Shown: one piece after another, positions 17,262-25,810 of the stretch
Layout: each line of letters starts with the position of its first letter
Numbering within the stretch: the first letter of the stretch is position 1
NCBI GenBank assembly: GCA_016180645.1
Contig: JACPAV010000059.1
Location: forward strand, 1 to 25,810
Direction: 5' to 3'
DNA length: 25,810 bases
Source: Nitrospirota bacterium
GTDB lineage: Bacteria; JACPQY01
The notes under the pieces: generated by a model
The model's database searches: none
The model's input: the letters and a program-made list of their open reading frames with translations, nothing else
Told to the model about the DNA's origin: nothing
Program-made: the position numbers and the translations under genes

Positions 17262-18443
17262 ATGCAAACGCTTGCCGGATACTTCGCGGAGCACAACCTC
17301 TTTGACGAGACGACCCTTCGGGAGCACGGCCGGGCGCGCGGCGTCCGGGTGGCGACCTCTCCGCGGTTTCCCCACCTCAGACTTCTGGAATATGGCACCC
17401 TCGTGCAGATCGAAAAGATCCCGTGGGACCTCTTCAACCGGCGTTGCCGCGGCATCGTTGTCGACTTGGAGAGGAAGCGCCTCTTGGCCTTTCCCTTCCA
17501 CAAGTTCTTCAATCTCGGGGAAAAGCCTGAAACGGCGGTCAACCGCCTCCTTGAACTGGGCACCTTCACCGCCACGGAAAAACTGGACGGATCGATGGGC
17601 ATCCTCTTCTACGACGAGGCCTCAGGACGCTTCCACATCACGACTCGGGGGAGTTTCGACTCGACGCAGGCCCTATGGTCCTCGGAGCGCATTCCGGCCT
17701 CCGTGCAGGACACCAATCTCGTCGAGGCCTACACTCTGATTTTCGAGATCATCGCCTATCGGGTTCGGGGTCTCGATAACATCATCGACTATCGTAAGAA
17801 AGGTTTGGCCGAGGGCCTGTATCTCGTGGGGATGCGCCACCGGATCTCCGAAACTCTTCTTCCCCACGCCGAGCTCTTCCGCTTTGCGAAGGCGCGGGGT
17901 CTGCCCACACCGAGGGTCCATGCGTTCGCTTCTCTCGATGCCTGCACGTCGCATGCGAAGACCCTCGATTGGATGGATGAAGGGTTCGTGCTGGAGTTCC
18001 GCGACGGCACGCTGGTCAAGGTGAAGAGCCCCGAATACTTGAGAGTCCACCGGTTCGTCTCGGGGTACAGCGATCGCAGGGTGCTGGAAGCCCTGCGTGA
18101 CGGGAAGTCCGACATCATGTTGGCGGGCGTGCCGGAGGAGTACCGAGGACCGGTGGAGGCGGACTTCGAGAAGTGGCGACGGAAGGCCCTGGATCTCCGC
18201 AACGAGGCTTATGCGCAGCTCGCGCGCGCCCCGCAGGGCGACCGGAAGGCCCTTGCCTTGTGGTGCAATGAGCACGTTGCCCACCATCTGATCCCGTTCG
18301 TTTTCCTTGCCCTGGACAACCGACTCACTCTCGATGGGTTGTACGGATATCTCCTGAAGGGGCTCGGACCGGGGGAAACGGATCGGAGGAACTTGGCCCG
18401 GGGAAGCCGGCCGGCAGATTCCGGGGAGCCTCCCGAAGGGTGA
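17262..18443 (+). CDS. T4 Rnl1-like RNA ligase
   Basis: A 393-aa protein, close to the 374 aa of T4 RNA ligase 1, with the family motifs in order. CRGIVVD (63-69) and FPFHKFFNLGE (77-87) come before motif I EKLDGS with nucleophile K107. Motif III is in VEAYTLIFEIIAYR (about 154-167), motif IV is EGFVLEF (E240) and motif V is VKVKS (K253, K255). In the family the enzyme forms a lysine-AMP and seals 3'-OH to 5'-phosphate RNA ends. T4 Rnl1 repairs tRNA cut in the anticodon loop by a host anticodon nuclease. No polynucleotide kinase/phosphatase partner is visible here. The stop overlaps the GTG start of the recombinase-like gene (GTGA), so both are expressed together. A tRNA array with unusual anticodon loops lies 3.2 kb downstream on the opposite strand. 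Confidence 0.88.
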   Translation: MQTLAGYFAEHNLFDETTLREHGRARGVRVATSPRFPHLRLLEYGTLVQIEKIPWDLFNRRCRGIVVDLERKRLLAFPFHKFFNLGEKPETAVNRLLELGTFTATEKLDGSMGILFYDEASGRFHITTRGSFDSTQALWSSERIPASVQDTNLVEAYTLIFEIIAYRVRGLDNIIDYRKKGLAEGLYLVGMRHRISETLLPHAELFRFAKARGLPTPRVHAFASLDACTSHAKTLDWMDEGFVLEFRDGTLVKVKSPEYLRVHRFVSGYSDRRVLEALRDGKSDIMLAGVPEEYRGPVEADFEKWRRKALDLRNEAYAQLARAPQGDRKALALWCNEHVAHHLIPFVFLALDNRLTLDGLYGYLLKGLGPGETDRRNLARGSRPADSGEPPEG

Positions 18444-20394: not shown

Positions 20395-20862
20395 ATGAGA
20401 AAACATTCCCGGCCGTTCAATCTTGCGGTGGACGAGCAATTTCCAAGCCTGGAAACTCACCCGCTCGTTCGCCGTGCCCGGAGGGCACCGGTCGGCCGAC
20501 AAATCCGGTGGATCCGTCTGAGGATCGGGATGACCCAGAAACAACTGGCCCGAAGGGCGGGGATCTCGCAGCAACACGTAGCTCTCTTGGAGAAGGACGG
20601 CTCACAAGCGGAGCTCAGGACGCTGACCAAGGTGACCGAAGCGCTGGAGTGTACCCTCGCCGTTCTCGTCTCCCCGCGCGACAAGTTGAGTCGCATGATC
20701 CGCAAGCAAGCGGAGAAGGTTGCCGGAAAGAGACTCTCGAAGGTGATGGGGAATATGGCGCTTGAGGGCCAGGAGCCTTCATCGGCGATGTCGAAGCGGC
20801 TTCTTGAAGACGAGATCAAGAACCTCTCGATCAAACCATCTTCGGAGCTCTGGGAGGAATGA
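20395..20862 (+). CDS. XRE-family regulator, 'mobile mystery protein A' type
   Basis: The gene encodes 155 aa. A Cro/C1-type helix-turn-helix occupies about residues 35-90: RQIRWIRLRIGMTQKQLARRAGISQQHVALLEKDGS, then LRTLTKVTEALECTLAVLVSP. This is followed by a helical region ending IKPSSELWEE. The domain and its pairing with a Fic gene directly downstream match the pair annotated in many genomes as mobile mystery proteins A and B. It likely represses its own promoter, where a 12-bp dyad lies between the -35 and -10 boxes. The same dyad in front of the 185-aa HTH gene suggests a second target. The stop overlaps the Fic start (ATGA). Confidence 0.85.
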   Translation: MRKHSRPFNLAVDEQFPSLETHPLVRRARRAPVGRQIRWIRLRIGMTQKQLARRAGISQQHVALLEKDGSQAELRTLTKVTEALECTLAVLVSPRDKLSRMIRKQAEKVAGKRLSKVMGNMALEGQEPSSAMSKRLLEDEIKNLSIKPSSELWEE

Positions 20863-21467
20863 AGCCGACCTTGAGACAGCCGGAGGGCGCCACGCCGCTG
20901 ACGGATGTCTCCGGACTGTTATTGGAAAACGTTGCGACCCTCGACGCGCTCAACGTTGTGGAATCGGCGAATATCCTTGACGCAACCCGGGAGCATCTTC
21001 GACGGCGGCATGGCTCCAAGAGGAGATGGATCACCGTGGCGTATCTGTTGCGCGTACACCGCGACATGTACGGGGAGGTTTGGCGCTGGGCGGGCGAAAT
21101 TCGCCGGACGGAAAAGAACATAGGCATCGAAGCGTACCGGATCCGAGAGGAGTTGGAGAAACTGTGCGGCGACGTGAACTTCTGGGATACGCAGGAAACG
21201 TCGATGCCGGTCCTCGAAAGAGGCGTGCGCATTCACCATAGACTGGCCTGGATACACGCGTTCGAAAACGGCAACGGACGCCACGCCCGACTCATGGCGG
21301 ATATCTATCTCCATGCACATCGCCAGCCGCTCCCCGAATGGCCATCGAGCAACCTCGTAAAAGTCGGCAACGCCCGCAGATCGTATCTGGAAGCCATGAG
21401 GGCGGCTGACGGCGGAAATGTGGAGCCGCTCCTCCAACTCACTGCACGCTTCATCAAGAGCGCCTGA
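20859..21467 (+). CDS. Fic-domain protein, 'mobile mystery protein B' type
   Basis: The gene encodes 202 aa with the Fic core HAFENGNGRHARL (H133 to R144), matching HxFx(D/E/N)GNGRxxR. The upstream part (ESANILDATREHL, ITVAYLLRVHRDMYGEVWRWAGEIR) is typical of this subfamily. Fic enzymes usually transfer AMP from ATP to a hydroxyl on a target protein; the target here is unknown. An inhibitory helix is not obvious by eye. It is translated from the same operon as the XRE regulator, with a 4-nt overlap. The two genes act as a unit that travels on mobile elements, and here they sit at the edge of the tRNA array. It ends with TGA. Confidence 0.88.
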   Translation: MKPTLRQPEGATPLTDVSGLLLENVATLDALNVVESANILDATREHLRRRHGSKRRWITVAYLLRVHRDMYGEVWRWAGEIRRTEKNIGIEAYRIREELEKLCGDVNFWDTQETSMPVLERGVRIHHRLAWIHAFENGNGRHARLMADIYLHAHRQPLPEWPSSNLVKVGNARRSYLEAMRAADGGNVEPLLQLTARFIKSA

Positions 21468-23834: not shown

Positions 23835-23910
23835 ATGCCGGGGTGGGAATCGAACCCACGACCACGACGTTTAAGGCGTCGGCTCCGATGCCAACACAGA
23901 GTGCCCGGCA
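23835..23910 (-). tRNA. suppressor-type tRNA, anticodon TTA (UAA stop), Gln-like
   Basis: Acceptor TGCCGGG/CCCGGCA, U73; D arm CTCT...GGAG; anticodon arm CGACG-CCTTAAA-CGTCG; T arm GTGGG-TTCGATT-CCCAC. The centred 7-nt loop gives anticodon UUA with C33, A37 and A38. The D arm is nearly the same as in the neighbouring tRNA-Gln(CTG), and both have a U1-A72 pair, a Gln identity feature. A Leu (TAA) reading would need an off-centre loop, and the short variable region (TGGTC) is wrong for Leu. Predicted to read UAA and perhaps UAG. Confidence 0.75.
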
Positions 23911-24545: not shown

Positions 24546-24638
24546 TGCCCTCGGTGGGCCTCGATCCCACAATCTTCAGGCTCGGAACCTGACGTGCCCC
24601 GTAATGCGGGGCGCGCGATCCCTTCGCACCGCGAGGGC
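24546..24638 (-). tRNA. tRNA-Arg (CCG) with extra hairpin before the anticodon arm
   Basis: The total is 93 nt. Acceptor GCCCTCG/CGAGGGC, A73; D arm GTGCG-AAGGGAT-CGCGC; anticodon arm TCAGG-TTCCGAG-CCTGA; T arm GTGGG-ATCGAGG-CCCAC (A54). Between the D and anticodon arms lies an extra hairpin, GCCCCG-CATTA-CGGGGC, plus three bases, where normally one base is found. The hairpin resembles GCCCCGC-AGGAT-GCGGGGC of the insert in tRNA-Pro(CGG). Confidence 0.75.
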
Positions 24639-24835: not shown

Positions 24836-24978
24836 TGCGGCTGGTGAGATTCGAACTCACACGCTGCTCCGTCCGTACCTGGCCAGGATGGCTTGGTACT
24901 GCGAGACGATGCAGCGCCAGGACGGCGCTGCATATAACCGCTGTAGCGGAGTGGCCTCTCCAATTGACCGACAGCCGC
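24836..24978 (-). tRNA. tRNA-Arg (ACG) interrupted in the anticodon loop
   Basis: The gene is 143 nt long. Acceptor GCGGCTG/CAGCCGC, A73; D arm GGTC-AATTGGAGA-GGCC; anticodon stem CTCCG/CGGAG; T arm GTGAG-TTCGAAT-CTCAC. The anticodon loop contains a 68-nt insert flanked by TAC. Removing it gives the loop CTACGGA, anticodon ACG, and a 75-nt cloverleaf. The insert is too short for a group I intron. Confidence 0.82.
24875..24942 (-). mobile_element. twin-hairpin insert, copy 1 (68 nt) in tRNA-Arg(ACG)
   Basis: Read with the tRNA it begins AGCGGTTATATGC and ends CCAGGTAC. Hairpin 1 is GCAGCGCC-GTCCT-GGCGCTGC. Hairpin 2 is GTACC-AA-GCC-ATCCT-GGC-CA-GGTAC. TAC occurs at both borders, so the exact cut point is ambiguous by three bases. 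The same family occurs twice in tRNA-Pro(CGG), in the opposite orientation. Confidence 0.85.
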
Positions 24979-24988
24979 GCAAACCTAC

Positions 24989-25062
24989 GGTGGCCGACCG
25001 GAATCGAACCGGCGTGAGCGTGGGCCACAACCACGCGCCTTACCAACATCGGCCACGGCCAC
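24989..25062 (-). tRNA. tRNA-His (GTG)
   Basis: Acceptor GTGGCCG/CGGCCAC, C73; anticodon arm CGTGG-TTGTGGC-CCACG; T loop TTCGATT. The base at -1 is T, so the G-1 that pairs with C73 in most bacterial tRNA-His is not encoded. Confidence 0.9.
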
Positions 25063-25078
25063 ACTTCAATAAACTTCG

Positions 25079-25127
25079 GGACGGCGCCAGGATGGCTTGG
25101 CCATCCCGCGACTGGCCGGATGCCACC
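25079..25127. repeat. degenerate twin-hairpin copy 4 between tRNA genes
   Basis: It shares GCCAGGATGGCTTGG with the plus strand of copy 1, giving GCC-AGGAT-GGC. A second small hairpin TGGC-CGGAT-GCCA follows at the expected position. The remaining sequence has diverged. It sits between tRNA-Pro(GGG) and tRNA-His, not inside a tRNA. Confidence 0.6.
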
Positions 25128-25129
25128 AA

Positions 25130-25201
25130 GCGGGACGCTAGGATTCGGACCTGGGGCCACTCGCTCCCCGAACGAGTGCTCTATCTCTGAGCTACGTCCC
25201 G
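25130..25201 (-). tRNA. tRNA-Pro (GGG), C33
   Basis: Acceptor CGGGACG/CGTCCCG with C1-G72, typical of Pro; anticodon arm CTCGT-TCGGGGA-GCGAG with C33; T loop TCCGAAT (C55). Base 73 is C and the base before position 1 is G, so one extra G-C pair is possible, as in tRNA-His. Confidence 0.8.
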
Positions 25202-25207
25202 CAAGTT

Positions 25208-25281
25208 TCAGGGCGGTGAGAATCGAACTCACGGCCTCCCGGTTCCAAGCCGGGTGCTCTTGTCCCCTGAGCTACGCCCTG
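25208..25281 (-). tRNA. tRNA-Pro (TGG)
   Basis: Acceptor CAGGGCG/CGCCCTG (C1-G72), A73; antic­odon arm CCCGG-CTTGGAA-CCGGG; canonical T loop TTCGATT. Confidence 0.92.
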
Positions 25282-25323
25282 TCTTCATTTCGGGCTGCTC
25301 GGAATCGAGCCGAGTCCACATGC

Positions 25324-25389
25324 CACGTTGATCGCCCCGCATCCTGCGGGGCTTTCCTATCGTGGTACCAGGACTCCCTGTCCAGGTGC
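25324..25389 (+). mobile_element. twin-hairpin insert, copy 3 (66 nt) in the anticodon loop of tRNA-Pro(CGG)
   Basis: On the plus strand it reads CACGTTGATCGCC...CCAGGTGC. Hairpin 1 is GCCCCGC-ATCCT-GCGGGGC. Hairpin 2 is GTACC-A-GGAC-TCCCT-GTCC-A-GGTGC. It aligns with copy 2 over 66 nt, apart from a one-base register slip in the middle third. TGC flanks both ends. Stem bases differ from the other copies but remain paired. Confidence 0.82.
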
Positions 25390-25412
25390 TCCCGAAGCAT
25401 GGATGCGACCAC

Positions 25413-25478
25413 TACAGCGTTATATGCAGGCCATCCTGGCCTGCTTCCTTTCGCAGTACCAAGCCGTCCTCGGCCAGG
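25413..25478 (+). mobile_element. twin-hairpin insert, copy 2 (66 nt) in the D loop of tRNA-Pro(CGG)
   Basis: On the plus strand it reads TACAGCGTTATATGC...GGCCAGG followed by TAC. Hairpin 1 is GCAGGCC-ATCCT-GGCCTGC. Hairpin 2 is GTACC-AA-GCCG-TCCT-CGGC-CA-GGTAC. It is closely similar to copy 1 (shared TTATATGCAG, CGCAGTACCAAGCC and GGCCAGGTAC) but is inverted relative to the tRNA that carries it. Confidence 0.85.
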
Positions 25479-25492
25479 TACACCACACCCCG

Positions 25493-25652: not shown

Positions 25653-25712
25653 ATCCCACCACCTGTCACTAGGTCGAAAACCTGCCTTCCGGCAGTGACA
25701 AGGTGGTGGGAT
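25653..25712 (+). promoter_or_regulatory. perfect three-way-junction palindrome overlapping a ribosome binding site
   Basis: A 12-bp outer stem ATCCCACCACCT/AGGTGGTGGGAT continues (one bulged A) into GTCACT/AGTGAC. It encloses two hairpins, AGGT-CGAAA-ACCT and GCC-TTCC-GGC. The right arm of the outer stem contains the purine-rich AAGGTGGTGGG and the first two bases of the next ATG, so the folded RNA would hide the start. It also lies just upstream of the tRNA array on the other strand and could act there. Confidence 0.65.
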
Positions 25713-25810
25713 GATGACAAAACACCTGCGCAAGCATCTTTCTGGTAAGGGTTGGAGTTCTGGAAAGACCCTTGCGCTTACCGTGCCGCTGGACGCGGGA
25801 CGGCGATGCG
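25711..25810 (+). CDS. start of an unidentified gene, cut by the window end
   Basis: Thirty-three codons are visible (MMTKHLRKHLSGKGW, then SSGKTLALTVPLDAGRR) and the frame is open to the end of the window. AAGGTGGTGGG precedes the double ATG. The start is basic and polar. Too little is present to name a function. Its ribosome binding site is part of the three-way-junction palindrome, and it is divergent from the tRNA array. Confidence 0.5.
   Translation, partial: MMTKHLRKHLSGKGWSSGKTLALTVPLDAGRRC

Follow-up and report, generated by a model that had tools for sequence, protein, structure and literature searches.

We consider it likely that the three short inserts found in two tRNA genes of the window (the whole stretch of 25,810 nucleotides analysed, contig C59 of a 4.7-Mb draft genome, here G000) are copies of a non-autonomous single-strand DNA element whose insertion is guide-directed and which is most likely moved by a Y1 (HUH) transposase. 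On balance, the copies appear to represent an undescribed family of self-addressing single-strand DNA elements of ~66 nt, in which a single triplet alternates between pairing with the chosen target and pairing with the right end of the element itself, the triplet has been switched several times with the target dinucleotide following it, and insertion occurs in hairpin loops, including the anticodon and D loops of tRNAs.

More than 30 tRNA genes are packed on the minus strand into the final 4.2 kb of the window. The tRNA-Arg(ACG) gene (24836-24978, minus strand; 5' part 24946-24978, 3' part 24836-24877) is split in its anticodon loop by one element, E1, and the tRNA-Pro(CGG) gene (25290-25492, minus strand) by two, E2 and E3, one in the D-loop and the other on the 3' side of the anticodon arm. 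With the cut set after the target triplet, E1 is a twin-hairpin element of 68 nt (24878-24945, plus strand; covariance model match of 70.4 bits) whose right end reads ...CGCTGTA. Its target triplet GTA (24875-24877, plus strand) forms the left flank and pairs with an internal guide, TAC, located at the 3' foot of hairpin 1 (24897-24899, plus strand; columns 25-27 of alignment A1). E2 (25321-25386, minus strand, GCA-type, 69.8 bits) and E3 (25413-25478, minus strand, GTA-type, 85.5 bits) are twin-hairpin elements of 66 nt each, with targets GCA (25387-25389) and GTA (25479-25481) and guides TAC at 25365-25367 and 25456-25458, respectively. The guide of E2 thus faces its target with an A.C mismatch; its relatives in a second genome, G001 (L041, L045 and L051), carry TGC.

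The first-pass annotation had described three full twin-hairpin copies, and their coordinates, stems and AGGAY/RTCCT loops were all confirmed on the sequence. Its observation that clean removal rebuilds a normal tRNA was also borne out, by deleting one element and one triplet each time: the empty Arg site yields a canonical 75-nt tRNA-Arg(ACG), and the empty Pro site a 71-nt tRNA-Pro(CGG) with a single G.G mismatch in the acceptor stem. With the inserts left in, ARAGORN called no tRNA at the interrupted genes. A paralogous array of the same genome (L013, G000:C25:66100-67883) shows mostly the same gene order without inserts and carries intact Arg(ACG) and Pro(CGG) genes. Since the host has this other array, the one on C59 is probably dispensable, and its two interrupted tRNA genes are most likely inactive. 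The exons are still intact, which suggests that the insertions into the tRNA genes are fairly recent.

The inserts belong to a large family. A covariance model built from 22 family copies found at least 99 copies in G000 and at least 132 in G001, a groundwater Nitrospirae MAG and the sole relative searched; across ~288 other genomes it found essentially none, and no convincing match. In the set searched the phylum was represented by these two genomes only, and both were positive. The family-A pattern was not found in viral contigs, and in genome contigs it was found in G001 and as single matches in unrelated genomes only. The elements, of 66-69 nt across the family, are dispersed genome-wide, with more than 200 copies outside tRNA arrays; within G000, E1 and E3 have copies of 87-91% identity on other contigs (for E1, 91% on C6 and 87% on C13), and G001 holds a 94% identical copy of E3. 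Empty and filled versions of the same site were identified in both directions: L041/L045 are filled at the junction of GGGACGCA and TTCCTATGCGTCC, which is empty in the flank of L033, while L033/L037 are filled at CTTC-GTA, which is empty in L041/L045. Elements were also found nested inside the loops of other element copies (L104 and L179). Together, the many non-tRNA copies at unrelated sites, the empty/filled pairs and the element-in-element nesting uphold one half of the earlier proposal, namely that of a small transposable element. A fourth tRNA case is L191 (G000:C16:36376-36444), where an element lies at the acceptor 3' end of a chromosomal tRNA-Ile(TAT), whose acceptor stem is still intact, as the element's right end restores the sequence.

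Part of the copy number is due to hitch-hiking inside spreading composite REPs, as GTAG-type REP/REPIN repeats with an element in their loop have multiplied as composites in both genomes (L161-L171 and L183-L200). Approximately 12 identical copies in G001 were considered as that many recent jumps; this reading was rejected, as these copies have longer REP-type flanks in common and spread together as a composite, and sites were therefore de-duplicated by flank before counting.

In the alignment, the layout comprises the target nNN, hairpin 1 with an AGGA-type loop, the guide XYC, four bases, a linker, hairpin 2 with the loop AGGAT or AGGAC, a spacer and the right end GNN. The target dinucleotide NN is host DNA, and the ends read NN/CC...GNN in the copies inspected. 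No terminal inverted repeat was found in alignment A1. Among 22 family members 91.7% of the cells pair and nine pairs have changed on both sides, giving a covariation score of 0.433; shuffles gave 0.152 (0/500), and slid controls did not exceed 0.133. The compensatory stem changes noted in the first three copies, and the conserved structure that they implied, hold with more copies. Hairpins 1 and 2, one subterminal at each end, both covary, as does an alternative outer helix formed by pairing of the guide and the next bases with the right end. Pairing of the guide with the left nNN forms the foot of hairpin 1; in the alternative fold the guide pairs with the GNN at the right end of the element itself and so closes a stem around hairpin 2. 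Left target, guide and right end show three-way covariation, and the two folds are mutually exclusive because both use the same guide. As most copies lie outside tRNA transcripts, selection on folded single-stranded DNA accounts for this covariation at least as well as selection on RNA. A CsrA-type RNA-binding role of the AGGA loops was set aside, since the constant ends and the guide pairing favour an action at the DNA level.

The relation between guide and target was analyzed in 88 copies, 39 of which have distinct flanks and were taken as independent insertion sites. The guide dinucleotide at the 3' foot of hairpin 1 matches the left flank dinucleotide exactly at 32 of the 39 sites, guides TA, TG, GG and GA corresponding to left flanks TA, CA, CC and TC; when the guides were shuffled among sites, the mean was 11.8 matches and the maximum 24 in 100,000 permutations. 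In all seven exceptions, E2 among them, A stands opposite C or G opposite T. Since copies sharing a guide are kin, the independent evidence consists of a handful of switches. A tree made from the element bodies, with guide and target masked, implied ~9 guide changes and ~7 target changes on different branches; examples of such switches within the GGC/CC clade are L175 (TGC/CA) and L180/L188 (GAC/TC). The match does not reflect stem conservation alone, because empty sites place the left flank outside the element.

The identical triplets at both sides of the inserts (GTA for E1, GCA for E2 and GTA for E3) had been read as 3-nt direct repeats and, in turn, as a possible 3-bp target duplication. 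The triplets are present at these three elements, but the other copies show no true duplication. Only the adjacent dinucleotide, matched by the guide, is common to both sides; the base 5' of it is G on the right in 39/39 sites, whereas on the left it is variable (G 18, A 12, T 6 and C 3), and this is therefore not a 3-bp target duplication. The pattern at the ends, as read from the sequence, is what one would expect if both ends were cleaved 3' of a dinucleotide matched by the guide, and not if the cut were staggered.

Insertion takes place just 3' of the dinucleotide NN, and preferentially within hairpin loops: a stem of at least 7 pairs, formed by the joined flanks around the cut, is present at 17 of the 39 sites and at 1.9% of the genomic positions used as matched controls (p ~3e-9 with all stem lengths considered). 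The targets include the loops of GTAG-type REPs, perfect palindromes such as GAGCCTTAAGGCTC, the loops of other element copies and the tRNA arms of the window. The tRNA genes are targets because their D and anticodon arms are hairpins that carry TA or CA in or beside the loop, and the array to which they belong is probably dispensable.

Hairpins, guide-matched cleavage and the lack of duplication are features of the Y1 (HUH) single-strand transposases (PMC6006769), and it is because of this likeness that we propose a Y1 mode. The element would act as folded single-stranded DNA, pairing of the guide would select both cleavage sites, as guides do in IS200/IS605, where guide tetranucleotides pick the cleavage sites (PMC6006769), and a Y1 (HUH) transposase of the TnpA-REP/IS200 type would catalyse strand transfer into single-stranded hairpin loops. 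In support of the selection step, an altered GTAG guide of a Marinomonas REP shifted the TnpA-REP cleavage dinucleotide predictably (PMC8266576). The element itself carries no gene. There are seven Y1 genes in G000, those for the long forms of the protein on C34, C32 and C37, and eight in G001, and inspection of their surroundings in both genomes for element ends revealed no REPtron-like flanking, although on C34 one element copy lies ~0.7 kb from a Y1 gene. Because no Y1 gene is flanked by the element, we infer the enzyme from the mode of insertion. A search among the loci examined for an autonomous version (a left half without a right half, or pairs flanking open reading frames) led only to a nested case and to ordinary genes.

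The same guide-carrying DNA element might be moved by an unrelated enzyme or process; examples would be a tyrosine recombinase that uses folded single strands, or template switching at hairpins during replication. The absence of element ends alongside any Y1 gene would agree with this, tyrosine recombinases are encoded in the genome (three of them on contig C59), and insertion into hairpins would also suit events at the replication fork. We regard this as an unlikely explanation, since the IS200/IS605 and TnpA-REP mode is characterized by precise, constant ends and by guide-target matching, and constant right ends are not expected from template switching. Classical GTAG-type REP/REPIN elements account for the data even less readily: high copy number, hairpins and a host with Y1 genes are shared with them, and GTAG REPs exist in the same genome with the element inside their loops, yet the two hairpins are direct rather than inverted, the guide is variable, and no copy read has a GTAG or CGTC foot. 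We hold this identity to be highly improbable, and in its strict form it is refuted by the absence of the conserved GTAG foot from all copies read.

The other half of the earlier proposal, that the inserts are excised from the transcript, would make them miniature intron-like RNAs cut from the tRNA precursor and sealed by an RNA ligase of the same contig, leaving the tRNAs functional. The intact exons, even in the doubly struck tRNA-Pro gene, the covarying stems and a T4 Rnl1-like RNA ligase encoded at 17262-18443 are what such excision would lead one to expect. Nevertheless, E1 is antisense to its tRNA whereas E2 and E3 are sense to theirs, nearly all copies (more than 200) lie outside tRNA arrays, an Rfam scan at gathering scores for introns and ribozymes returned only tRNAs, and the Pro acceptor stem has the G.G mismatch; moreover, mitochondrial double-hairpin elements in genes have been reported to stay in the transcripts (PMC2800124). 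Given the orientation of the inserts and the intact, element-free array on C25, splicing is not needed to explain the data, and on these sequence grounds we judge it very unlikely. Group I and group II introns were rejected on account of the length of just 66-68 nt and of the lack of a catalytic core recognisable by Rfam. A guide-directed single-strand DNA element thus remains our preferred reading of the inserts.

Other features of the window deserve mention. A second hairpin repeat (family B; 25077-25135, plus strand), of which ~20 copies are scattered over G000, directly adjoins tRNA-Pro(GGG) at its 3' end and could be more distantly related to the element. Inside the array, a tRNA with the anticodon UUA, ochre-suppressor-like, is predicted at 23835-23910 (minus strand), and a 93-nt tRNA-like gene with an extra GC-rich hairpin lies at 24546-24638 (minus strand); ARAGORN assigns the latter as tRNA-Asn(att), and its anticodon arm is ambiguous. 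A nested palindrome (CCCACCACC...GGTGGTGGG, with inner stems) is located at 25655-25714, upstream of the array's first tRNA gene. Beside the array lie the RNA ligase gene (plus strand), for which no relatives were found in genome and viral contigs, and a gene for a Fic/Doc protein (20859-21467, plus strand); both fit a tRNA-repair or translation-related cargo of a mobile element.

What is known of guide-directed single-strand transposition comes chiefly from a small number of model insertion sequences and from work in which their guides were engineered, and the spread of REP-like repeats is still poorly understood. In the present family, the concerted change of guide and target is documented by over 200 natural copies of an element that is short enough for synthesis as a single oligonucleotide, which would allow tests of how REP-like repeats spread and of why hairpin loops are targets. 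Our results also advise caution, as a tRNA gene that is interrupted in a bacterial assembly may have been hit by a mobile element rather than contain an intron.

Small hairpin repeats have been described before, and so, separately, have double-hairpin elements and single-strand transposition directed by guides; a literature search, with most subscription journals outside it, found no bacterial element with one common guide, natural variants following different targets and insertion into tRNA loops. The IS200/IS605 elements (IS608, ISDra2) and their miniature derivatives resemble the present element in several respects: hairpins are found close to both ends, the guide pairs with the right end as well as with the left target, and insertion occurs 3' of a short motif without duplication. 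Unlike them, the element is just 66-69 nt long and without a gene, favours hairpin loops and has a natural range of four dinucleotide targets; while IS608 has two guides, each 5' of its hairpin, the element has one common guide, 3' of hairpin 1. A MITE of the terminal-inverted-repeat type has terminal inverted repeats and a target duplication of fixed length, and the element has neither. With REP/BIME/REPIN sequences and their TnpA-REP (RAYT) it shares non-coding hairpin repeats in high copy, several Y1 genes in the genome and a guide that chooses the cleavage dinucleotide (PMC8266576), and some REP dimers have been reported within palindromes (PMC3733652); it differs from them in lacking the GTAG/CGTC foot and the inverted REP pair and in not flanking Y1 genes. 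The double-hairpin and related hairpin elements of fungal, algal and sponge mitochondria are of similar size, dispersed, also present in RNA genes and without clear target duplication (PMC2800124), but the present element is bacterial and GC-rich, and guide-target pairing is, as far as our sources go, undescribed for them. Finally, the Rickettsia palindromic elements (RPE) are likewise small palindromic repeats within genes; they carry a CGTC tag (PMC3733652) and were described in protein genes, not in tRNA loops, where the element reported here also occurs.
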